From a virus, in the IMG/VR virus record IMGVR_UViG_3300024433_000001, positions 1 to 58,212 of that record: a DNA stretch of 58,212 nt. One strand, written 5' to 3'. This document shows, piece by piece, positions 32,910 to 42,865 of this stretch; position 1 is the first letter of the stretch; the number at the start of each line of letters is the position of its first letter. A model generated the notes under the pieces. It had not been told where the DNA came from. It did no database searches and saw nothing but the letters and a program-made list of their open reading frames with translations. The translations under genes were made by a program, and so were the position numbers.

Positions 32910-33023
32910 CTAACCGTCTCCTCGAAACAAAAAAACAGGTTCTATGACCCTAATTATCACGGAACCTGTTTTCTACACTATGTCAGTTGTAACAGAAAAT
33001 CGGTTCTTTGTCAAATTAACAGG

Positions 33024-34580
33024 TTATACGGCTGCCGCCCAACCATCTGTCTGCGGCCATGCCGCACCTTCCTGGCGATCCGGTTGGGCGCCCCCAGGGA
33101 ACCCTGTAGACAACCCCAAAAGAGAGTATTGCAAGGCTTCCGCTACATGGCTGTACTCGTTTTTGTCGGGTTCGTCCTTGTACGTGTCGCCCAGAACCGA
33201 TCTGACACGTTTGAATTGGTAGCCGCCGTTGAACCCTTCACGGAGCACAGAGCATCGCGGGTCAAGCTGGTAAGCGGGTTTGCCTCCCACCATCCGCGTC
33301 AACCAGAAGTTCACAGCATCCCGACGCATAACAAGATCCTGGGTCGACGCGCGTTCCGTCAGGATACCCAACCTGTTTAACTCGCCAAGACAGGTCATCT
33401 CGTCTACTTGAGACCGTTGCTGGCCCGATGGGTCGCATCGGCTGATAATCTGCATACCAGAGAACTCTGTCAACAAAGCTGGCCGGACAACATCAGTCAC
33501 AAACTGCTGCAGCCCGCTGTCGGTTGCCACATATTCCCGGATCGTGTTCAACCGGCCCGAGGGCGTTATCTGGCTTATCGTACATGCCGGACTAAGGCCA
33601 AAGTCCCAGCCCAGGTACAATGGCAAACCCTTATAAATCCCTATCGGTTCTTTAGCAACATGAACGCTATCGCGCCAGGTGGCCTCGTACACAGCCCGGC
33701 CTTCGAAAATCGCCCCATATTCGCCTAGCACACGGACGTTGATCCAGTCCTGGTCCTTGCCAGGGATCATCATAAGCCAATACTTGTAGCCCAGCGGCTG
33801 ATTCTGGACGTTTTCGGCCAACGGATTAGCAGAATATGTGCCGTCCGGCTCCCGGATAAGCGCCGCAGGTTGTCCAAAAAACCGCCAGTTGTCGGGTTGC
33901 TCTTGCTCAGCCAGCCTATACCACCAGTGACGAATTGACGGCGGGTTCGTGTCCATGATCACACCGCCCCACGTCGGACCGCCTTTGTTCTTGGCCGGAT
34001 ATCGGTTGACCCTGCCTGTGAGATCGTCCAGGATAGCTTTCGGGACTTCCCGGGCTTCGTTGATCCAGGCGCCGGTCAGCTCGAGACTTTGCAGGTGGCG
34101 GACATCCTTTTCGGTGTCCAGAGCCAGGAATATCACCTCCATATCAATTGTCGTTTTGCCGTCTGCGTGCGGGAACCCGCGCATAGAGGCCGTCAACGGC
34201 GGTGACCATCGAAACGGACACACCCGTTCCGGTATCCATTCTTGCCAGGTTTTGATTGCTGTGGTCCGCAGCTCAGGCGTCGTGTTGCGGATAACCGCCC
34301 AGCGAGTGCGACGCACACCTTGATGGGGCTCTTGCTCGTTTGCCCGCCGGAATATCTCCATCACCATGGCCGCAGACTTGCCAGTGCCAAACGGGCCGCG
34401 CATGCCTCGGACAAACGAGTGATCGGCATGGAACTCTGCCAAAGTCTGGCCGGCGGGGTGGTAGTCGATATATTCGGTCTTTTTGGGCGGGCCGTCAGAA
34501 GACGAGATCTGTCTGACCAGCGAATCAATCAACCGGCTTTTGGCCGTCGTCTTCGAGGACTTCGACACGTGAAGCTCCAT
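33024..34580 (-). CDS. terL: Terminase large subunit
   Basis: 518 residues. ATPase domain: Walker A GPFGTGKSA (about residue 63-71), a Walker-B-like segment LTGAWINEAREV. Nuclease domain: GWDFGLSPACTI with the first acidic residue, SRCDPSGQQRS, and a late HVAEALQYSLLG. This layout is that of headful-type large terminases of P22-like and related phages. It overlaps the small subunit by 56 nt. It drives DNA into the prohead through the portal. Confidence 0.93.
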   Translation of the reverse strand: MELHVSKSSKTTAKSRLIDSLVRQISSSDGPPKKTEYIDYHPAGQTLAEFHADHSFVRGMRGPFGTGKSAAMVMEIFRRANEQEPHQGVRRTRWAVIRNTTPELRTTAIKTWQEWIPERVCPFRWSPPLTASMRGFPHADGKTTIDMEVIFLALDTEKDVRHLQSLELTGAWINEAREVPKAILDDLTGRVNRYPAKNKGGPTWGGVIMDTNPPSIRHWWYRLAEQEQPDNWRFFGQPAALIREPDGTYSANPLAENVQNQPLGYKYWLMMIPGKDQDWINVRVLGEYGAIFEGRAVYEATWRDSVHVAKEPIGIYKGLPLYLGWDFGLSPACTISQITPSGRLNTIREYVATDSGLQQFVTDVVRPALLTEFSGMQIISRCDPSGQQRSQVDEMTCLGELNRLGILTERASTQDLVMRRDAVNFWLTRMVGGKPAYQLDPRCSVLREGFNGGYQFKRVRSVLGDTYKDEPDKNEYSHVAEALQYSLLGLSTGFPGGAQPDRQEGAAWPQTDGWAAAV

Positions 34581-34998
34581 TGGTTATTTGATCAGGCAGC
34601 GGGGGCGGGGTCAGATCAATCCGAAACACTAGCCCTTGACCAGTATGCTCGAGTGTGGCCTGATCCCGATACTTGTTGGGTTTCAGGGCTTTTAGTAGAA
34701 AAATCAGTAGTATGTCGCTGTACTTGCGGATAACCCCAACTTGCTTTTCTTGGCGGAATACCGGTTCGTCCCACCCTTCGAACGCCCGACGCCGCGCCTC
34801 GCCCTCGAGCAGCTCCGTCGCTGTGTCAACCGCATCTTCCCACGCCTCGGCAAACTCGGGATCGTTTTTCCGCCAGGTTTCGAGCGTCCTGCGGCAGACT
34901 GTACAAGCCTGTACCGCCAAGCTCACGTTGCCGGTCCTGGCGAGGTCCTCGAGAAATACTGCCTTCTGGCGTATCTGAGACCGCGTCCTGGCATCCAT
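34525..34998 (-). CDS. terS: Terminase small subunit
   Basis: 157 residues. An N-terminal helix-turn-helix region (AVFLEDLARTGNVSLAVQACTVCRRTLETWRKNDPEF) binds the packaging site, and a helical middle with LLEGEARRRAFEG and LLIFLLKALKPNKYRD follows, the characteristic end of many small terminases. No Shine-Dalgarno precedes the ATG, and a promoter -10 element lies about 7 nt upstream, so this mRNA may be leaderless. First gene of the late operon. Confidence 0.88.
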   Translation of the reverse strand: MDARTRSQIRQKAVFLEDLARTGNVSLAVQACTVCRRTLETWRKNDPEFAEAWEDAVDTATELLEGEARRRAFEGWDEPVFRQEKQVGVIRKYSDILLIFLLKALKPNKYRDQATLEHTGQGLVFRIDLTPPPLPDQITNGASRVEVLEDDGQKPVD

Positions 34999-35004
34999 AC
35001 TGGA

Positions 35005-35034
35005 AGTATAGCATACATTACACGGCTTGGTCTA
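35005..35034 (-). promoter_or_regulatory. Candidate late-operon promoter, extended -10
   Basis: On the minus strand TAGACC, 18 bp, then TGC-TATACT: a good extended -10 with a weak -35. The transcription start would fall at or next to the terS ATG. A weak -35 is usual where a phage activator is needed. Confidence 0.5.
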
Positions 35035-35130
35035 TCGGGGCCGTCTTTGGGCCGGCTACAGGTCGCCTACGGGCCGCCTATAAGTGTGCGCCTGCAGGGA
35101 TATGCCCTGCCACGCTCGGAGGCCAACGCC

Positions 35131-35163
35131 ATACCCTCAAAATACCCTCAAAATACCCTCAAA
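35131..35163. repeat. Three tandem 11-bp repeats upstream of terS
   Basis: ATACCCTCAAA occurs three times without a gap, then degenerates (GTACCCCCGCC). The 11-bp period puts each copy on the same face of the helix. It lies about 130 bp upstream of terS, a place where a pac site or an activator site would be expected. Confidence 0.8.
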
Positions 35164-35227
35164 GTACCCCCGCCATACACCTTCCGTACCACCAAAAGTA
35201 CCATGCCCGTACGTATTTATCTCTTTG

Positions 35228-35249
35228 AAGCCCCTGTTTTCGGGGCTTT
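35228..35249. terminator. Hairpin, possible weak bidirectional terminator
   Basis: AAGCCCC, loop TGTTTTC, GGGGCTT. A short T-run follows on one strand only. It stands between the excisionase-like gene and the late operon. The surrounding stretch 35035-35523 holds no convincing gene. Confidence 0.4.
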
Positions 35250-35488
35250 CCCGCCCCAAATGCGTACGCACTTTTCTCTGCAGGATATGCTAGACGCAGG
35301 TGGATCGACCCCGGAGACCCGCCTTGGTATACTAAATCTGAATAATTTAGTTCCAAATTAGTAGATTCGCAAGTTATTTCGCACGGCAAAGGGGAGCCCG
35401 CCCGCCGGCGGCTATGCGTGACGGAGCCTCCGCAAGGGCGCGTCCAACGACGAAGATTGTTGTGTAGAAAGGAGTTAGAAAAAAGGCA

Positions 35489-35522
35489 TTTCTGCGCAGA
35501 AAGACGCATTTCTGCGGAGAAA
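35489..35522. promoter_or_regulatory. Two dyad operator-like sites 20 bp apart
   Basis: TTTCTGCGCAGAAA (35489-35502) is a perfect 14-bp palindrome. TTTCTGCGGAGAAA (35509-35522) is the same site with one changed pair. Both sit in a 20-bp repeat, exactly two helical turns apart, which favours cooperative binding of a dimeric regulator. They overlap the end of the excisionase-like gene and lie upstream of the late genes. Confidence 0.6.
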
Positions 35523-35523
35523 G

Positions 35524-35748
35524 CTAACGGCGCTGGTATGGGCCGTTGCTTTTGCCGTGCTCATCAACCCATGCAAAGAAATCGGCCTCCGAGATAAGTA
35601 CGCGACCGCCTACGCGCCGAATACAGCGGGAAAAGCCGTTCTCGGCTGCGCAGGAAATCAGCCAGCGCAATCCGCCAATCGAGGGCCACGGGTGATATTG
35701 CGACCACTTCGTGGCCGGGATAAAGCGTGTCTGCCTGTCAGTTTCCAT
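35524..35748 (-). CDS. Excisionase/AlpA-like winged-helix DNA-binding protein
   Basis: About 74 residues. The segment around WPSIGGLRWLISCAAENGF, then CIRRVGGRVLISEADFFAWV, is the pattern of small winged-helix proteins of the excisionase or AlpA type (helix, turn, wing with Arg-Val-x-Ile, recognition of DNA). No integrase was found, so it probably regulates transcription rather than excision. The start at 35748 is 7 nt from GGAGG; 35751 is also possible. It has its own promoter and two dyads at its 3' end. Confidence 0.75.
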   Translation of the reverse strand: METDRQTRFIPATKWSQYHPWPSIGGLRWLISCAAENGFSRCIRRVGGRVLISEADFFAWVDEHGKSNGPYQRR

Positions 35749-35776
35749 CATGTGCCCTCCGGTTGTGCCTGCTCAT

Positions 35777-35805
35777 AGTATACAGCACAGGACAAACAAT
35801 ATCAA
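35777..35805 (-). promoter_or_regulatory. Sigma70-like promoter of the excisionase-like gene
   Basis: On the minus strand TTGATA, 17 bp, TATACT. The start point near 35770 leaves a leader of about 20 nt that contains GGAGG. Confidence 0.7.
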
Positions 35806-35877
35806 CAAGCCGCTAGTGGCGGTCCTGGGCGGGTCTGATCCGCCGACACGGAAGACAGGCCCGATGAAGCAACACGC

Positions 35878-35933
35878 GATATTGCGCCCTCATGGCGAAG
35901 ATTTGCGCCTATAAGCGTGATATTGCGCCCTCA
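35878..35933. repeat. Pair of 15-bp direct repeats
   Basis: GATATTGCGCCCTCA occurs at 35878-35892 and 35919-35933, 41 bp apart, upstream of the excisionase-like gene promoter. It may be a binding site for a regulator acting on that promoter. Confidence 0.6.
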
Positions 35934-36065
35934 ATGAATTGATTCCCCCTAGGTGCATGGAAACGAAATGGAAACGAAAAAGCGCCCAACACCCCTGGGG
36001 ATATTGGACAAAGACAGAAAAAAAGAAACAATACGGAAACAATGCGCCCCTAGCCGGCAGAGAAG

Positions 36066-36266
36066 TCACTTCCCCTTCCGCCTGAAAACCTCAGTTATTG
36101 GCCTGGCCTTAGGGACCTTGTTCTTAGGACGACCAGCACGCCGGATATACTCGTCAAATAATGTTCTGAAACGCAAGTATGCCTCAGAGAATCTGTTGTA
36201 CGCCCCAGCATCCGAGGGCGAGCGCCTCGTGCCGGCTAAATCGCGAAGCAATTGTTTGTCAACCAT
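36066..36266 (-). CDS. Small basic protein, unknown
   Basis: 66 residues, helical, with an Arg/Lys-rich C-terminus (RRAGRPKNKVPKARPITEVFRRKGK). GGAGG lies 5 nt upstream of the ATG. It is transcribed toward the excisionase-like gene. It might bind DNA; no family recognised. Confidence 0.55.
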   Translation of the reverse strand: MVDKQLLRDLAGTRRSPSDAGAYNRFSEAYLRFRTLFDEYIRRAGRPKNKVPKARPITEVFRRKGK

Positions 36267-36659
36267 CGCACCCTCCTCACCTTTTTCTTGCCGACATGAT
36301 ACTCAATCCTACTGCCGGTTGCAAACTCGGCACACAGGGGATCGAGCATCCTGCCGGACAAAAAATGTCCGGCAGGGCCTCTGTGGCCGTCGAGGCCTCG
36401 GTGCTCCCTCAAGGAACTCGGGCGGCGGAGCGTGAGGAAGGGAACTGCAGTACCAGAAGTGGAACTTTAGTGCTGTTTTGGGAACTGCGCAACTGGACGG
36501 GGCACTTTGGCGGTGCAAAAAAGTATTGGCGCAGGCCGGAAAGCCATAAACAGCTGAGAATAAAGCCGTTGCGTTGTTGCAGGTTCCGCGCTCGTGCGAC
36601 AGGTCCGACCGGAACTGCAACAAAACTGCAACAAGCGCCTATCGGATATTGACCGTTAC

Positions 36660-36675
36660 TACCTAACGTTAGGTA
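36660..36675. promoter_or_regulatory. 16-bp perfect palindrome
   Basis: TACCTAACGTTAGGTA is followed by a T-run and preceded by TTGACC at 36649-36654. It can be read as an operator inside a weak plus-strand promoter spacer or as a small terminator hairpin. Confidence 0.4.
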
Positions 36676-36732
36676 TTTTTGTGGCACAGCGTTGCGGTAG
36701 GTCGATCCCAGCACCCATACACCATCATCGAA

Positions 36733-36752
36733 ATGTAAGGTATCGGTTACAT
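36733..36752. promoter_or_regulatory. Operator-like dyad, copy 1
   Basis: ATGTAA-GGTATCGG-TTACAT: 6-bp inverted arms around 8 bp. The core recurs at 36848-36865 with one changed spacer base. A shared arm and spacer in two places suggests binding by one regulator. Confidence 0.5.
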
Positions 36753-36847
36753 TTGGAATCCAGTAGCTATTAAGCCGAAAGGCCTCGTAACCATTGGCGC
36801 GGCAAACTGTTAACTATCATCCGAGGACCTCAAACCACTGGCGTCGG

Positions 36848-36865
36848 TGTAAGGTATAGGTTACA
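36848..36865. promoter_or_regulatory. Operator-like dyad, copy 2
   Basis: TGTAA-GGTATAGG-TTACA, 115 bp from the first copy and identical to it over 17 of 18 positions. Confidence 0.5.
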
Positions 36866-37016
36866 TCCAACACTCGATAAAGTGTCCAGCGCGTGGTGGT
36901 ATTTTGGGGTGGTACTCGGTGGAAACTGCAACAGGGAAGAGGGGCGGGAGGACAAGGTGGGCTGCTGGGCTTAGGCCGCGGCCTTGCGTCACGGTGTGGG
37001 TGCCGACACCTGCCGC

Positions 37017-37046
37017 AATCTCCGGCAATCTCCGGCAATCTCCGGC
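37017..37046. repeat. Three tandem 10-bp repeats
   Basis: AATCTCCGGC three times in a row within the gene-poor region. Short tandem DNA repeat of unknown use. Confidence 0.7.
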
Positions 37047-37127
37047 AAACTAGGACGCCGGCACGCAGAACCGAACCGTAACGCCCCCACCCCGCCGACG
37101 GCCATACGGGCCGTGCCGGCTAAGTCA

Positions 37128-37430
37128 CGGACCGAGCGGCAGGACCCGGCGGTGGGACCGAGCGTTCTAGTAGCCTTCGCCGATCTGCGTCGCAAGCAAT
37201 CGGTAGAGGCCGCCGGTCACGAGCGCGAGCCGAAGGGCGCAACCGACCCTCGCGGCGACAGCCAGGGAAAGAGCGCACAGGTGGAAGGGGTCCACACCGC
37301 CCTGGACGCCGCCGCCCTCGATAAGCATCCGCTTGGCGTGCTAAGTCGCGGACCGAGCGGCACGACGGCCCGGGCGACCGCCGTAGTTAGCCGGCAAGCA
37401 ACATGGCGAGCGCCTCGCGGACCGAGCGGC
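37128..37430. repeat. Three dispersed copies of a 13-bp core
   Basis: CGGACCGAGCGGC occurs at 37128-37140, 37349-37361 and 37418-37430, with partly conserved flanks (taagtc before two copies, acgacgg after two). The copies fall in different reading frames, so the repeat is of DNA or RNA, not of protein. Confidence 0.7.
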
Positions 37431-37548
37431 ACGACGGCGACCCAGCGCACAGCATTATCGTAATCGCGCGACGTGATGCGCTGGTCAAGGACGCACGGGC
37501 GCCGGTGCCCTAGGCCAGGAAGGCCAGCACGCCCCCCTGCCGGCTTGC

Positions 37549-37577
37549 TTGACAAGGACGCCGGCCAGGGCTATACT
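37549..37577 (+). promoter_or_regulatory. Near-consensus sigma70 promoter without a downstream gene
   Basis: TTGACA (37549-37554), 17 bp, TATACT (37572-37577). Transcription would begin near 37584. No start codon with a Shine-Dalgarno site follows before the terminator at 38192. Confidence 0.7.
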
Positions 37578-37583
37578 CCGTCC

Positions 37584-38217
37584 TTGCGTCGCAGTGGACG
37601 AAACTCGGCCCCGCGCCGTGTGGGCCTGGCCTTAGGACTCAGGGCTCAGGGCCCAAGGCCAGAACCCTATATCCGCGGCGCCATGACTATGCTGGGCGTT
37701 GCCGAACAGTTTGAGGGCCGGCAGCGCCCGCATAGTGCCTATCCACCCCAGCGCATACTGGCGCATGAAACCTATAAACCCTTATGTTTCAACAACTTAC
37801 CCTATGCGCGGATACGCCTCAGCGCATACCAGCGCATGAGCGCAAGTACTCATTACCCAACCTCACAGTATAAGCCCCCCGAACTATCATCGGCCCCAGC
37901 TGTTTTGAGGCAAGCGGTCACCGCGTGCGCCTATCTGGCTGATGTGACAAGCCGGCTGGACCGAGCCTGAGTACGTCAAATTGAAGGAACAGCCCGGCTC
38001 GGCTCCCAGACCCGGTCCAAGGCCTAGACACAGCCCGGGGCCAGGGCCCAGACCAGGGCAAAGAACGCGTGTACTTCGCGCCCGCGCCAAAGGCTAAAGC
38101 ACCGCCACGAGTAAGGTTGCGCGGTTTCCAGGCCTCGGCCCAAGAACACGTGTACTTAACGCCCTCCGCCAAAGCCCGGATGCGGCCCAAAACCTACTTA
38201 CGCGTAGGTATTTTTTT
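37584..38217 (+). ncRNA. Candidate structured noncoding RNA, about 630 nt
   Basis: Bounded by the promoter at 37549-37577 and a terminator at 38192-38217. Strong helices are visible: CTGGCCTT (37626-37633) with AAGGCCAG (37655-37662) enclosing GGGC/GCCC; and an 11-bp stem 37694-37704 with 37719-37729. Two copies of a roughly 31-nt repeat (38061-38092 and 38142-38174) with a GTGTACTT core lie near the 3' end. A 95-codon frame from 37682 has no ribosome binding site and looks unnatural. An RNA product is inferred, not shown. Confidence 0.4.
38192..38217 (+). terminator. Rho-independent terminator
   Basis: ACCTAC, loop TTACGC, GTAGGT, A, then seven T. It closes the transcription unit that starts near 37584. 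Confidence 0.7.
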
Positions 38218-38352
38218 CCCAGGGAACATGCGCAGCGCGCCGGCAAACAACCCTTCTGTTTTTCCAAAACTGCGAATTATGATACATATATGAAATCCAC
38301 CCTATCTTATATCTGGACATGTATTACCAGGCAACCAGAGTCTTTTAGCTCA

Positions 38353-38378
38353 AAAACTACCAAAACTACCAAAACTAC
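38353..38378. repeat. 9-bp tandem repeats beside an AT-rich stretch
   Basis: AAAACTACC is present as two full units and one partial unit, followed directly by an AT-rich run (AAATATAAGATATC). The pair of iterons and AT-rich DNA is a common layout of replication origins. Confidence 0.6.
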
Positions 38379-38495
38379 AAATATAAGATATCTAAGGTAT
38401 CTCTAATACACCCTAAACCATATTTGCCACCACTCACCCCCCCCTAACCCCCCTAACCCCCCTTCCCCCCCCGGGGCTGGGCGCCGAGACGCTTT

Positions 38496-38531
38496 AACGT
38501 CAAAACGTCAAAACGTTAAAACGTTTTAACG
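38496..38531. repeat. 8-bp iteron block
   Basis: AACGTCAA twice, AACGTTAA, then AACGTTTTAACG, in register. The last unit is a palindrome. Candidate origin or regulator binding array about 240 bp upstream of the plus-strand promoter. Confidence 0.65.
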
Positions 38532-38664
38532 CCACTATTGAGCTACTGCAGCGATTTCCCGTCGCGGCGGAATCGCCTGAACATGATCCGGTTGACAACT
38601 GCCCTTCGGCCGGGCTACAATAAGATCAATCCGCTGCTGCGGAGGTGGACGGTTCTTGCCGTTG

Positions 38665-38690
38665 GGGCCCATGAGGGCCCTTTTCTATTT
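38665..38690 (+). terminator. Rho-independent terminator
   Basis: GGGCCC, loop ATGA, GGGCCC, then TTTTCTATTT. It insulates the promoter at 38770 from upstream rightward transcription. Confidence 0.6.
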
Positions 38691-38769
38691 CTACAAGAAT
38701 TTCCCTGGGCCAAACCTATCCGTCCATATATCCATACGCGCCATCGGTTTACGGGCCGCAAAAAAAGAC

Positions 38770-38799
38770 TTGACATATGCGGGATATGTCGTGTAAAAT
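38770..38799 (+). promoter_or_regulatory. Strong promoter with an operator in its spacer
   Basis: TTGACA (38770-38775), 18 bp, TAAAAT (38794-38799). Between them GACATAT (38772-38778) and ATATGTC (38784-38790) form a perfect 7-bp inverted repeat with a 5-bp centre, so a bound repressor would block RNA polymerase. It drives the eight-gene plus-strand block. Confidence 0.75.
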
Positions 38800-38841
38800 A
38801 GAGGTAGGTGGACAGGGCAACCAAGGGAGGGTATAAAGCTC

Positions 38842-39342
38842 ATGAAGAATAAGGCAGTAGTAGCAATACGCGGCGGGCGAATAGTCGTGCACGTGCCCAA
38901 CGCGACGGTGCGCAGTGACGGCACTATCTGGTATAGGGGCCGCTATCCCCTGCTTGACAGCGAGGCGGAGGGCGCGCTGCCGGCGGCCGAGGCCGCGCGG
39001 CTTATCAAGGCGGGCAAGCTGGACGATATCCCGGCCTCGATGTACGCTCACATGGGCACGACACAGAGCGGGATGCGGGTGATGTGGTCTGACGACTGGG
39101 ATGCCGAGCGGCGCGCCAAGTACGATACCGAGCATCCGGGCGCCAAGGAGCGCCAAGCGATACGCGCGCTCCTTGCCCAGGCTGAGGACCTGCGCCACCT
39201 CAGTCGTGAGGACAACGCAGGCAGGTACATCCGGCTGACCGTCCGCGCCGCCTTGCGACTATCCGCATGGCGGGAGCAGTATCCCGATGAGGCGCGCGCA
39301 GAGGATATGGCTCGGCTACAAGACCTGGGATTCCTGTGTTAA
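38842..39342 (+). CDS. Plus-strand block gene 1, unknown
   Basis: 166 residues. An N-terminal beta domain (AVVAIRGGRIVVHVPNATVR) is followed by a helical half with many Ala, Glu and Arg (KERQAIRALLAQAEDLRHL, then the C-terminal MARLQDLGF). First gene after the regulated promoter; GGAGG lies 11 nt before the ATG. GC-rich coding unlike the neighbouring minus-strand genes. First-expressed genes in such blocks often target host functions, but no family is recognised. Confidence 0.7.
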   Translation: MKNKAVVAIRGGRIVVHVPNATVRSDGTIWYRGRYPLLDSEAEGALPAAEAARLIKAGKLDDIPASMYAHMGTTQSGMRVMWSDDWDAERRAKYDTEHPGAKERQAIRALLAQAEDLRHLSREDNAGRYIRLTVRAALRLSAWREQYPDEARAEDMARLQDLGFLC

Positions 39343-39372
39343 CTAGGCCAACAACAAAAAGGAGACCGAGTG

Positions 39373-39546
39373 ATGAAGAACGTAAGCTACACGATCGAAA
39401 ACCAGATACTGGTCATCCAAGTCGACCTCAGCAAGCGGTTTGGCCCGTCCAAATCTGGCAAGACGCAGATCATTGCCACGAGCGAGGGCATAGTTGCGCT
39501 CGAGAGCGGGGCCCAGTTGGGCCTCAATGTATTTTGCCGCGAGTGA
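39373..39546 (+). CDS. Plus-strand block gene 2, small protein
   Basis: 57 residues starting MKNVSYTIENQILVIQVDL, with a strand-rich N-terminus and a C-terminal IIATSEGIVALESGAQLGLN. AAGGAG is 8 nt before the ATG. Its first eight residues and upstream leader match those of gene 6 (40726), evidence that one was built from the other. Similar small proteins occur in phages as unknowns. Confidence 0.65.
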   Translation: MKNVSYTIENQILVIQVDLSKRFGPSKSGKTQIIATSEGIVALESGAQLGLNVFCRE

Positions 39547-39553
39547 CAAAATA

Positions 39554-39626
39554 GGCGGGGACTTGCTCCCCGCAGGGCGGCCAGGGTTGGCCGCCGTGTC
39601 GGGAACAAGACCAGAAGGGAGGAAAC
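39554..39626 (+). repeat. Double-hairpin intergenic repeat, copy 1
   Basis: Two stems: GCGGGG with CCCCGC, and GGCGGCCA with TGGCCGCC. A conserved GAACAAGACCAGAAGGGAGG end then supplies the Shine-Dalgarno site of gene 3. Copies 2 and 3 occur at 40291-40367 and 41091-41166. Confidence 0.8.
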
Positions 39627-40079
39627 ATGATAATGACCATACTATCTGCAGGGGCGCTGGATGCGGCTGACACCGATCAGCTGGTTGCGCTAAGGGATGC
39701 CGTGGCGGATGAGCTGGCGCGCCGAACGGGACAGCCCGCCGCCAAGGTGAGGGTGGCGGTCGATTTTGGCGCGTACAACGCGCGCCGCTACGGCAAGCCC
39801 TGGATTGGACGTATAATCGCTTGGCCTGTGGGTGATAAGCCGACGATCACATGGGGTGCCTACATAGGCCGTCACGCATACACCGGCGCCCCTAACGGAG
39901 GCGAGGTAGAGATCATGGCCTATCCCGGCGATATTGTGCGGTGGGGCCAAAAGGACCATCGCGGCCATGACACAGAGGCCCATTGGGGTGTGGTCAACAT
40001 AGACCAGACCATTGCGGAGTTGACCGCTGCCGAGGCGCGGCAGCGGTATGTGGACAAACCGAAAGAGGAGGACGAGTGA
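39627..40079 (+). CDS. Plus-strand block gene 3, beta-barrel-like domain protein
   Basis: 150 residues. A helical N-terminus (LVALRDAVADELARRTGQ) precedes a compact domain with IAWPVGDKPTITWGAYIG, PGDIVRWGQKD, HWGVVNI and the ending LTAAEARQRY. The same domain forms most of gene 6. Proteins with the GDIVRWGQKD pattern are widespread unknowns in bacteria and phages. GGAGG lies 4 nt before the first ATG; the ATG at 39633 is also possible. Its stop overlaps the start of gene 4 (TGATG). Confidence 0.75.
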   Translation: MIMTILSAGALDAADTDQLVALRDAVADELARRTGQPAAKVRVAVDFGAYNARRYGKPWIGRIIAWPVGDKPTITWGAYIGRHAYTGAPNGGEVEIMAYPGDIVRWGQKDHRGHDTEAHWGVVNIDQTIAELTAAEARQRYVDKPKEEDE

Positions 40080-40288
40080 TGACAAAACAAACCAAGGACG
40101 CTCTAAAGGCGGCGCAACTACGGGTGTTGGCAGTACAGCAGGAGCAGCGCGCTGCGGCGCACCTGCGCCAGGCGGCTAAACCCATCTATGCCGGCCAGGA
40201 CGTTATCTGTGCTGACAAGGCGGCGGAATGCCGGGCGTTTGCGGCGCAGAATCGCGCCCAGGCGGATCTGCTTGATCCGCAGCGCTAA
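40079..40288 (+). CDS. Plus-strand block gene 4, small helical protein
   Basis: 69 residues, almost entirely helical and Ala/Gln-rich (LRVLAVQQEQRAAAHLRQA). Its ATG overlaps the stop of gene 3, so the two are coupled. GGAGGACGAG precedes the start as in genes 2 and 6. Function unknown. Confidence 0.65.
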   Translation: MTKQTKDALKAAQLRVLAVQQEQRAAAHLRQAAKPIYAGQDVICADKAAECRAFAAQNRAQADLLDPQR

Positions 40289-40290
40289 TG

Positions 40291-40367
40291 GCAGCGGGGA
40301 GCTTGCTCCCCGCAAGGCGGCTAGGGTTGGCCGCCGTGTCGGGAACAAGACCAGGAAGGGAGGAAAC
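40291..40367 (+). repeat. Double-hairpin intergenic repeat, copy 2
   Basis: Stems GCGGGGAGC/GCTCCCCGC and GGCGGCTA/TGGCCGCC. The C-to-T change relative to copy 1 turns a C-G pair into a T-G pair, so the RNA helix is kept. It ends in the Shine-Dalgarno site of gene 5. Confidence 0.8.
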
Positions 40368-40371
40368 TACC

Positions 40372-40644
40372 ATGAAAACAAAAGAAAAAGTCCGATTCCG
40401 TCTCGGTCCAATCGTGGCTACACCCGGCGCACTCGAGGCCCTGTGCCAGAATAGCGCCAACGGCTTGAAGTATTTACGGCAACACGTCTTGGGCGACTGG
40501 GGCGAAGTCTGCGCTGACGACAAGGAAGCTAACGATCAGGCGCTGATTGACGGCAGTCGACTCCTGAGCGCATACACCCTATCCGATGGCACCAAGCTGT
40601 GGATCATCACCGACGCAGTTATTGACACCCAGGGCAATCGGTAG
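40372..40644 (+). CDS. Plus-strand block gene 5, 'plasmid-related' family protein
   Basis: 90 residues. The pattern LGPIVATPGALEAL, then a His-x-x-GDWGEVC segment, RLLSAY and DGTKLWIITDA is that of a short, widely spread family often annotated as plasmid-related protein, found on plasmids, phages and chromosomes. Its function is not known. GGAGG lies 8 nt before the ATG. It is the best-recognised member of this block and shows the block shares genes with other mobile elements. Confidence 0.8.
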   Translation: MKTKEKVRFRLGPIVATPGALEALCQNSANGLKYLRQHVLGDWGEVCADDKEANDQALIDGSRLLSAYTLSDGTKLWIITDAVIDTQGNR

Positions 40645-40725
40645 GGCACAACCTTGCTACTGCCCGATCAGTATTGATTAGCAAGGGCAACCCATGGCGT
40701 GTTTTGAGCACAAGGAGGACGAGTG

Positions 40726-41175
40726 ATGAAGAACGTGAGCTACACAATCGCAACCGATGAGGCGACCGTCACCTTAGGTGCGGGAACCAAAAACAGACGA
40801 ACAATGATGGAGCAAAGGGTAGTAATCACATGCCGTGATGAAAAGCCTTGGGTTGCGCGTGTAATAAGTTGGCCGATAGACGCTAGGCCAACGATCACGG
40901 GGGGCAGTTATCGGAGCCATCGCGAATATGGTGATGATCTTAACGGCGGGACTGTACAACTTATAGTCTCCCCGGGCGATACCGTGTGTTGGGGTGTAGG
41001 GAACCATCCAGAGACCTATTGGGGTATAGTGCATAGGGGTAAGGGCATTGAGGAGTTGACTGCTGCCGAGGCGCGGCAGCGGTACAATGGCGGCGGGGAT
41101 TTGCTCCCCGCAAGGCGGCCCGCAAGCAGGCCGCCATGTTGGGAGCAAGGCAAACCAGAAAGGAACGGGAAATGA
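40726..41175 (+). CDS. Plus-strand block gene 6, chimera of genes 2 and 3
   Basis: 149 residues. It begins MKNVSYTI like gene 2 and continues with a domain homologous to gene 3 (ISWPIDARPTITGGSY, PGDTVCWGVG, ETYWGIVH, ELTAAEARQRY). Where gene 3 soon ends, this copy reads on through the hairpin repeat, adding a Gly/Arg/Pro-rich tail (NGGGDLLPARRPASRPP). That tail is the translated repeat and is probably a by-product. AAGGAG with 8 nt spacing precedes the ATG. Confidence 0.7.
   Translation: MKNVSYTIATDEATVTLGAGTKNRRTMMEQRVVITCRDEKPWVARVISWPIDARPTITGGSYRSHREYGDDLNGGTVQLIVSPGDTVCWGVGNHPETYWGIVHRGKGIEELTAAEARQRYNGGGDLLPARRPASRPPCWEQGKPERNGK
41091..41166 (+). repeat. Double-hairpin intergenic repeat, copy 3
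   Basis: Stems GCGGGG/CCCCGC and GGCGGCC/GGCCGCC, with a longer second loop than the other copies. It overlaps the 3' end of gene 6 and carries the AAAGGA site of gene 7. Confidence 0.75.
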
Positions 41176-41807
41176 TGAATAGAATTGAAAAGGCTCGACA
41201 AGCACTCGCGCGGTTTGAAGACCGGTTCCGTGCCGAGATCGTTCCCGCCGGCGCGCCGGACCGGCGAAATCTACAGAGGGCGGCTTGTGCCGAGGCCCAT
41301 CAGCGGGCTTGTCTGCCACGGAATATCAGGCGGCGACTCGCCTTGGTGGATGCAATTGGTAGTGCCCGTAAAAGCGAGAGGCTTCGGCAGGCATGGGCGT
41401 TGAGGAAGGCCGAGCCGGGATATCAACTACGGCAAAAAGTGTTCAAAACACTGCGCGCTATGGGGTTCCGGCGGGAGAAGCGCACATCGGGAAAGTCCGT
41501 ATATTATATTCGCGACGGCTATCGGGTCCGAATCAGCGACCATGACGTGCCTGACACGCCGGAACGCGAATACAATTGCCAGAATGGCGGTTTCGGCTGG
41601 GCGCACAGTCCAGACTCACTTGTGATCAATCAGTCTACAACTGAGCTCGACGCGGCATGTTGGCTAGTTGGGGTCCGCTCAAAATTAAGGCGGGGACAGC
41701 TAAGGATAAGAGCGGTATGGCGTTCAGAAAGGAGAGTAAAATATGACAACGATAACGAGCCTGGAAGAATTACTGGTGCTAGAGAAAAAGGGCAAGATTA
41801 TTGTTAA
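41172..41807 (+). CDS. Plus-strand block gene 7, unknown
   Basis: About 211 residues. A basic helical N-terminal part (IEKARQALARFEDRFRAEI) leads to a segment with FRREKRTSGKSVYYIRDGYRVRISDHDVPDTP, a small beta module that recurs in phage unknowns. The last 40 residues are Arg-rich and overlap gene 8 by 65 nt, so the functional protein may end earlier. AAAGGA lies 7 nt before ATGATG. Confidence 0.6.
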   Translation: MMNRIEKARQALARFEDRFRAEIVPAGAPDRRNLQRAACAEAHQRACLPRNIRRRLALVDAIGSARKSERLRQAWALRKAEPGYQLRQKVFKTLRAMGFRREKRTSGKSVYYIRDGYRVRISDHDVPDTPEREYNCQNGGFGWAHSPDSLVINQSTTELDAACWLVGVRSKLRRGQLRIRAVWRSERRVKYDNDNEPGRITGAREKGQDYC

Positions 41808-42444
41808 CGACGATTGCAGGATTGTAGGACATCTTTACGGCGCACTCCCGAACCTGATCGTCGGAGGCAACCTATGGGTTCGAGACGACCTGATCGCCTT
41901 AGGCGGCCTAGCCGTCGGGGACAACCTAATCGCCAAGAGCGGCGAGCTGACCGCCTTAGGCGACCTGACTGTCGGACGCGACCTGATCGTCAAGAGCGGC
42001 GATCTGACCGCCGGACGCGACCTAATCGTCAAAGGCGGCAACCTGACTGTCAAAAGCGGCGACCTGACTGTCGGACGCGACCTGACCGTCAAAAGCGGCG
42101 ACCTGACCGTCAAAAGCGGCGACCTAACCGCCGGACGCGATCTGACCGTCAGGCGTGGCGACCTGATCGCCTTAGGCAACCTAGCGGTCGAGGGCAAGCT
42201 ATGGGTCGGAGGCGACTGGTACTGGTCCCAGATGTCATTGCCCAATGTTGCTGGCACAATGAAACATCATCGCGTATTGCCGGCGCCTTGGCAACGTAGT
42301 TATTGGGCGGATCGCCTTGGCGTCTCCATCCCCGTAAATTGTTACTATGACGCGATTATCGCCGGCCTGGACATTCCCAAGCTACTCCGGCTTCGTAAGT
42401 GGACGCCAACGGAAAGGTGGATACTTAAGTCGTTACAATCTTAA
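41743..42444 (+). CDS. Plus-strand block gene 8, beta-solenoid repeat protein
   Basis: 233 residues. Residues of about 35-150 consist of some 17 consecutive short repeats of six or seven residues on the pattern (G)DLTV(K/G)(S/R), with one hydrophobic pair per turn, as in a regular beta-solenoid. A C-terminal helical cap (ADRLGVSIPVNCYYDAII) follows. Such solenoids act as scaffolds or, in some families, as DNA mimics; no acidic face is obvious here because Lys and Arg alternate with Asp. AAAGGAG lies before the ATG. Strong terminator 13 nt after the stop. Confidence 0.75.
   Translation: MTTITSLEELLVLEKKGKIIVNDDCRIVGHLYGALPNLIVGGNLWVRDDLIALGGLAVGDNLIAKSGELTALGDLTVGRDLIVKSGDLTAGRDLIVKGGNLTVKSGDLTVGRDLTVKSGDLTVKSGDLTAGRDLTVRRGDLIALGNLAVEGKLWVGGDWYWSQMSLPNVAGTMKHHRVLPAPWQRSYWADRLGVSIPVNCYYDAIIAGLDIPKLLRLRKWTPTERWILKSLQS
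41890..42200 (+). repeat. Tandem DNA repeat encoding the solenoid
   Basis: Units related to CGACCTGACCGTC recur at 18-24 bp spacing with almost uniform codon choice. This regularity opens long spurious frames on both strands and would allow length change by slippage. Confidence 0.8.
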
Positions 42445-42456
42445 TGACAGCAGGGA

Positions 42457-42488
42457 ACGGCTGGTAGAGATATCAGCCGTCTTTTTTT
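42457..42488 (+). terminator. Rho-independent terminator of the plus-strand block
   Basis: ACGGCTG (42457-42463), loop, CAGCCGT (42474-42480), then C and seven T. It lies between convergent genes and stops rightward transcription before the early leftward genes. Confidence 0.85.
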
Positions 42489-42496
42489 GTGTCTTC

Positions 42497-42865
42497 TCAC
42501 TTTTTCTGGGCGTCATACATTTCGCGGACGCTTGGCAAAACCTGAGCCAGAAAAGACCCAACATCGTCACAGATTTCGCCATATTGTTCATGCGTCCAGA
42601 AAAAAATCACGTTTGAAAGGCGGCGCGCACAAATATCCGCAGGCTCGAAACGCAACCGGAGCAAAACAGCATCATATTCGAACGCCTCGTGCAATAAACC
42701 AGCCAAGACCCTTCGCCATGCGTGATCTCTGCCAATTAGCATTTTTGCAATGGTTTTATTATCCCAAACCACATAAGAATCTTGTCCCCTACAGAGCGAA
42801 ACCAATACAGGAACGCCGTGTAAAACACCCTTTACGGACTGTTTAACTTTCTTTTTTTTCTTCAT
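42497..42865 (-). CDS. Conserved phage protein of unknown function
   Basis: About 122 residues from MKKKKKVKQ, chosen for AGGAG 8 nt upstream. The C-terminal part (LLHEAFEYDAVLLRLRFEP, then FFWTHEQYGEICDDVGSFLAQVLP) matches a small group of phage proteins with a HExxEx helix and a later His. These could form a metal site, but this is not proven. Last gene of the early leftward operon. Confidence 0.65.
   Translation of the reverse strand: MKKKKKVKQSVKGVLHGVPVLVSLCRGQDSYVVWDNKTIAKMLIGRDHAWRRVLAGLLHEAFEYDAVLLRLRFEPADICARRLSNVIFFWTHEQYGEICDDVGSFLAQVLPSVREMYDAQKK

Follow-up and report, generated by a model that had tools for sequence, protein, structure and literature searches.

A predicted promoter-to-terminator unit without a convincing protein-coding frame in the control region of a bacterial virus

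The window analyzed here is a 58,212-base linear virus record (IMG/VR IMGVR_UViG_3300024433_000001, positions 1 to 58,212), and the host of the virus is bacterial. Most genes in the record run leftward, including those for a portal or head-tail protein, the major head protein, replication initiation, and recombination. A stretch of about 2.6 kb without a well-supported gene (36267-38841) separates two small leftward frames, which form its left border and have no match in Pfam or PHROGs, from a small set of rightward genes. The RNA unit proposed at 37584-38217 is thus placed between the packaging (terminase) genes and the rightward set. The flanking genes are as follows.

33024-34580, leftward: terminase large subunit
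34525-34998, leftward: terminase small subunit
35524-35751, minus strand: small leftward frame, 75 amino acids, good ribosome-binding site
36066-36266, minus strand: small leftward frame, 66 amino acids, good ribosome-binding site
38842-42444, plus strand: rightward genes behind promoter P3, then a strong terminator with its hairpin at 42456-42481

The rightward set has several features of its own. The proteins encoded at 39627-40079 and 40723-41175 (plus strand) form a paralogous pair, 38% identical and without a usable family match. Relatives of the pair occur in three other viral contigs (3 loci, best 39%), and the related gene at L033:8004-8375 is likewise rightward and adjoins leftward phage genes. 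The gene at 41743-42444 (plus strand) contains a long tandem array and bears a weak likeness to DUF5649, below the Pfam cut-off; this match and the below-cut-off match for 39627-40079 were set aside. Three copies of an element lie between rightward genes on the plus strand (39548-39632, 40288-40376, and 41085-41178). Each comprises two adjacent stem-loops, GCGGGGA..TCCCCGC and GGCGGCC..GGCCGCC, followed by a partly conserved stretch and then a ribosome-binding site; the loop of the second stem differs in the third copy. This element might control or protect each cistron. Its 19-nt core has no exact match among the viral contigs.

The unit itself opens with a promoter-like site, and its start and extent are given below.

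37549-37577, plus strand: promoter P1, TTGACA-17-TATACT, 11 of 12 consensus bases
37553-37560 and 37579-37586: arms of an 8-bp perfect inverted repeat across P1, operator-like
37584-38217, plus strand: proposed untranslated RNA of about 634 nt, with a putative start 7 nt past the -10 element

The first-pass annotation had named P1 as the promoter, and the site is indeed present: a plus-strand site with at least 11 of 12 consensus bases arose in just 1 of 1000 dinucleotide-preserving shuffles of 37001-38217. Across the whole window, there are three promoter-like sites of at least this quality, P1, P2, and P3, all on the plus strand and all within 37549-38799. Shuffled windows (n = 30) average 0.4 such sites, as compared to the three that span about 1.25 kb here, and none arose on the plus strand across 200 shuffles of 36267-38841. 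The P1 unit belongs to a larger control region with two further strong promoter-like sites. An 8-bp perfect inverted repeat like that over P1 appeared in 9 of 1000 shuffles of 37540-37600. Its left arm starts at the end of the -35 element and reaches into the spacer, ahead of wherever an RNA could plausibly begin, and the repeat is therefore best read as operator-like DNA rather than as an RNA stem; it suggests control by a DNA-binding protein. Two further sets of motifs occur upstream of P1. The sequence TGTAAGGTATNGGTTACA, which has near-dyad symmetry and is operator-like, is present in two copies (36734-36751 and 36848-36865), a number reached in 0 of 100 shuffles. A motif around CGGACCGAGCGGCA is present in three copies (37119-37145, 37340-37366, and 37409-37435) embedded in DNA of about 69% GC. 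An exact match of an upstream-of-P1 motif in a Cellulosimicrobium cellulans contig, with no more than pieces of 23 and 26 nt shared, was taken as chance.

The signals at the end of the unit and beyond it are listed next.

38192-38217, plus strand: predicted intrinsic terminator, 6-bp stem, 6-nt loop, T7
38351-38470, plus strand: C-rich, G-poor stretch, Rho-site-like, 50 C and 4 G
38437-38472, minus strand (template strand of rightward transcription): G-quadruplex motif
38592-38621, plus strand: promoter P2, TTGACA-18-TACAAT, at least 11 of 12 consensus bases
38628-38692, plus strand: three-hairpin unit, 65 nt, last hairpin terminator-like, small-RNA-like, folding z -2.97
38770-38799, plus strand: promoter P3, TTGACA-18-TAAAAT, at least 11 of 12 consensus bases
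38772-38790: inverted repeat GACATAT-5-ATATGTC in and around the P3 spacer, operator-like

The hairpin with seven T that had been described at the end of the unit is present as ACCTAC-6-GTAGGT followed by ATTTTTTT, with a folding energy of -7.6 kcal/mol, though it is middling among the 24 hairpin-plus-T sites of the window, several of which are stronger. Region 33000-41000 holds 11 terminator-like sites versus 8.4 in shuffles, so this terminator alone is unsurprising; it looks genuine, is of middling strength, and by itself does not exceed chance. The C-rich stretch is the most extreme C-rich, G-poor 120-nt window on either strand of the contig (10-nt steps). The quadruplex motif, which overlaps its end, is made up of four G runs of 6-8 bases each, with TTA, TTA, and AA between them, and is telomere-like. 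Two quadruplex motifs with runs of at least three G are found in the window, and this is the only one with runs of at least five. Both elements lie between the terminator of the unit and P2, where either is possibly a second stop against readthrough.

Only 1 of 200 shuffles folds as well as the 65-nt three-hairpin unit, and P2 together with this unit constitutes a second, smaller RNA candidate. Within the P2 unit, GGAGGTG stands 8 nt ahead of a 46-codon frame that begins with TTG (38656-38796). The inverted repeat at P3 is of a type found in 4 of 1000 shuffles of 38760-38830, and P3 itself lies about 40 nt ahead of the first rightward gene, which starts at 38842. Antisense pairing to 42 phage translation starts shows no excess for either unit, with 26 of 40 shuffles pairing as well as the P1 unit and 13 of 40 as well as the P2 unit (two of the 42 translation-start windows, 40373 and 41173, are one base off).

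P1 could also be an extra promoter for the rightward genes, with 37584-38841 forming a long leader whose regulated terminator is read through conditionally, much like antitermination in lambdoid early operons. The common orientation of P1, P2, and P3 ahead of a first gene that begins at 38842 is consistent with such an arrangement. So are two strong stem-loops near the 5' end, a layout that recalls the put RNA of HK022 (PMC9378689). However, P3, with its own operator-like repeat, makes a leader from P1 unneeded, and two terminator-like hairpins and the C-rich/quadruplex stretch intervene before the first gene. We consider this arrangement rather unlikely, if credible.

The internal features of the unit on which an RNA reading would depend are its hairpins and repeats.

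37626-37662, plus strand: hairpin with an 11-bp near-perfect stem, 10 of 11 paired, arms 37626-37636 and 37652-37662
37686-37736, plus strand: strongest local hairpin of the unit, predicted
37741-37768 and 37812-37839, plus strand: direct repeat, two 28-nt copies 71 nt apart, 82% alike
37803-37828, plus strand: hairpin with 10-bp arms, 90% complementary
38056-38094 and 38137-38175, plus strand: direct repeat, two 39-nt copies, best self-alignment score 25

Of the two helices cited in the first-pass annotation, the 11-bp near-perfect stem at 37626-37662 stands; the 8-bp stem has an arm inside promoter DNA and does not. The 634-nt plus strand folds better than most of its shuffles, with z values of -2.5 (20 shuffles, one as good), -3.9 (60 shuffles), and -3.35 (0 of 100 shuffles as good); control stretches of the same length (n = 20, 20 shuffles each) range from -3.4, reached by one of them, to 1.5. 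The complement of the whole unit, with z values of -4.7 and -4.6, folds as well as or better than the plus strand. Because the complement also beats its shuffles, folding by itself does not fix the strand of the RNA. The halves of the unit differ. On the plus strand, the 5' half reaches z -3.75 (0 of 200 shuffles as good) and the 3' half z -1.75 (9 of 200 as good), with the opposite strand of the 3' half favored (z -2.6). A 150-nt window from 37650, which covers the strongest hairpin, gives z -3.8 on the plus strand versus -0.5 on the minus strand. The noncoding DNA just upstream of P1 is richer in GC and gives z -1.05 (12 of 100 shuffles as good). The folding excess starts at the unit and is absent from the repeat-bearing DNA upstream.

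Repeats, of which the first-pass annotation had reported one of 31 nt, are likewise there within the unit, as the 28-nt pair spanning 37741-37839 and the 39-nt pair spanning 38056-38175. The core of the 28-nt repeat is present at least twice in 3 of 100 shuffles, and the self-alignment score of 25 for the 39-nt repeat compares with a maximum of 19 among 60 shuffles. Each 39-nt copy contains a near-palindrome (38061-38076 and 38142-38157), a pattern that alone is not unusual, since 21 of 100 shuffles have as many matches at 3 mismatches. On a wider scale, the 3.84 kb from 35.0 to 38.84 kb hold 9 tandem arrays versus 9-10 in the remaining 54.4 kb, a density about 13 times that of the rest of the window by manual count, together with several paired motifs. 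The arrays and paired motifs fit a control region.

They also fit the proposal that the unit works as DNA, through operators or iteron-like repeats, or as a site of replication or packaging beside the terminase genes, any RNA being incidental. The paired motifs and palindromes within and around the unit, and its position past the terminase small-subunit gene and ahead of the next operon, point the same way. Good folding of both strands is what inverted repeats in DNA would produce, and the short repeats and palindromes that crowd this region could lower the folding energy on both strands without any RNA function. Against this stand the promoter with 11 of 12 consensus bases and the terminator, which frame the unit in the same orientation, and a folding excess that sets in with the unit rather than in the repeat-bearing DNA before it. 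No packaging or origin site is known to us in this stretch, and a purely DNA-level role is, in our estimate, unlikely. If DNA sites alone are present, the finding is an ordinary one.

Coding potential was assessed on both strands. The first-pass annotation saw no frame with a ribosome-binding site, and this is borne out for the plus-strand frames of at least 20 codons that start inside the unit, none of which is preceded by a Shine-Dalgarno match of at least 4 nt. Minus-strand frames in the unit have several weak matches of 4-5 nt, with one GGAGG at a distance of 13 nt. The 3-base power is 0.11 for 37473-37970, the longest plus-strand frame to overlap the unit, and 0.37 and 0.84 for the candidates 37683-37970 (plus, 95 amino acids) and 37632-37766 (minus, 44 amino acids), respectively. 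The eight rightward genes range from 1.3 to 11.4, and two short leftward frames that have good ribosome-binding sites reach just 1.1 and 0.7. Trained on the rightward genes, whose own z values span 1.6-6.8, a codon model scores 37473-37970 at 2.6 and 37683-37970 at 3.2, inside that range. Wrong frames of the plus-strand stretch also score 1.5 to 2.2, so this codon score is not frame-specific. Codon scores trained on the leftward genes are at most 0 in all open frames, for 240-nt windows starting at 37480 to 37960. The repeats are not kept in frame, since the copies are either 71 nt apart or, for the 39-nt pair, best aligned with a gap that sets their ends 82 nt apart versus 81 without gaps. 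An in-frame amino-acid repeat across 38060-38190 was considered as a sign of coding and rejected, the best alignment of the copies being gapped. These data make it unlikely that the unit encodes a protein. An intact or decaying small protein is very improbable, despite the frame-specific score of the short 44-residue frame (z 3.0, likewise within the range of the rightward genes, with -1.3 and 0.9 in the other two frames) and a weak TAAGG 13 nt upstream of it, given the low 3-base power of both candidates, the lack of a Shine-Dalgarno match before the 95-residue frame, wrong-frame scores of 2.1 and 1.5 there, the leftward-trained scores, and the lack of a PHROGs family for the longer frames 37473-37970 and 36984-37463. 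The frame at 36984-37463 (plus strand, TTG-started, 159 codons), upstream of P1, scores frame-specifically in the codon model (z 3.2, against values below 0 in the other frames) but has a 3-base power of 1.5, and is perhaps a decayed gene.

Relatives of the region were sought in several collections. No homologous DNA was found for 36500-39500, or for 37980-38293, among 50,697 phage records, or for 35000-38842 among 72,556 plasmid records. Three exact DNA patterns yielded no relative among viral contigs, a search that detects near-identical copies only and that diverged relatives would escape. The repeat-motif pattern matched one 8.4-kb viral contig with a common 21-nt piece and nothing further at E up to 0.1, and the hairpin pattern matched no viral contig. 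The terminase subunits do have relatives in viral contigs, 10 loci for the small subunit (best 53%) and 15 for the large subunit (best 49%), and their relatives in phage records are below 60%; these relatives are distant. A protein search found no relatives of the proteins at 38842-39342 and 36066-36266, and tblastn of 35524-35751 and 39627-40079 in the phage records returned nothing. By blastn against 25 loci, 34991-42500 had one 33-nt match apiece in L005 and L006 (E 0.47). With 30 loci, a comparison that took in 43 of 44 proteins (one has a length not divisible by three), the best pieces had an E of 0.014, of which the longer two (L033 and L035) fall in the paralogous protein gene. A comparison of 37549-38842 with 24 whole records of relatives (all but L009-L012, L031, and L032) gave pieces at E up to 1 in 6 of them, the best with an E of 0.027, and nothing beyond chance matches.

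We place a discrete untranslated transcript first among the readings: promoter-like sites cluster here, folding rises above that of shuffles where the unit begins, and no frame is convincing. That P1 makes such an RNA of about 630 nt is a proposal that we hold with middling confidence. The sequence features named by the first-pass annotation are confirmed, and the noncoding RNA that it put forward is supported in part on these grounds; the case is weakened by a complement that folds at least as well over the whole unit, a terminator no better than chance when taken alone, a cited stem that falls in promoter DNA, and the lack of a relative in the searches made. Judging from the consensus match, RNA polymerase with a sigma-70-type factor would initiate at P1, and the repeat across P1 may let a DNA-binding protein regulate the promoter. 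The resulting untranslated RNA is predicted to form strong hairpins over its first 300 nt, and transcription would end at 38217, at the hairpin plus T7, with 38351-38472 as a possible Rho or G-quadruplex backstop. The product would most likely be a discrete regulatory RNA from the control region that P1 shares with P2 and P3.

A bolder version is that the unit is the first member of a novel family of large, structured RNAs of phages, about 630 nt long, with long hairpins as a 5' domain and the duplicated near-palindrome as a 3' domain. Its promoter would be regulated, and it would be insulated from the neighboring operon by a triple stop composed of the intrinsic terminator, the Rho-type C-rich stretch, and the template-strand G-quadruplex. 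We regard this version as quite improbable and treat the unit as an unplaced candidate of a known kind, the phage untranslated RNA. To our knowledge, few large untranslated phage RNAs have been found, and most are without a known function. This unit of about 630 nt, with its strong promoter-like site, would be a candidate for a further one, in a phage for which the searched collections yielded no close relative. The control region, with its three strong promoter-like sites, operator-like repeats, and C-rich/quadruplex boundary, offers a testable example of a possible way for a phage to insulate its transcription units.

Among known systems, Rfam gives no match at the gathering score across the whole window and, at E up to 5 within 34900-38900, only two sub-threshold hits to other families, both outside 37549-38217. 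Identity with ROOL or GOLLD was excluded at Rfam's sensitivity, the covariance-model threshold not being reached. The unit nonetheless resembles these RNAs in being a large, structured, protein-free phage RNA of the same size class, here as predicted from sequence. According to PMC12286853, many GOLLD members are longer than 800 nt, ROOL and GOLLD RNAs are often, though not always, near tRNA islands, and their function is described as unknown. The window has no tRNA genes, unlike the frequent tRNA neighborhood in that description. The HK022 put RNA is an antitermination element that acts on RNA polymerase; it is about 70 nt long with two stem-loops and lies downstream of early promoters (PMC9378689). 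The unit shares with it two predicted stem-loops near the transcript start and a predicted sigma-70-type promoter; the likeness is one of layout, and the hairpins here span about 37607-37759 versus about 70 nt for put. Unlike put, the P1 transcript seems to end at its terminator instead of passing through. Prokaryotic small RNAs are typically 50-550 nt (PMC12197685), and the P1 unit, at about 630 nt, is longer than that range. It carries its own promoter and terminator as predicted signals, as in a phage noncoding RNA. Phage small regulatory RNAs are short intergenic promoter-to-terminator units, and P2 with its 65-nt unit would be the best fit to that pattern.
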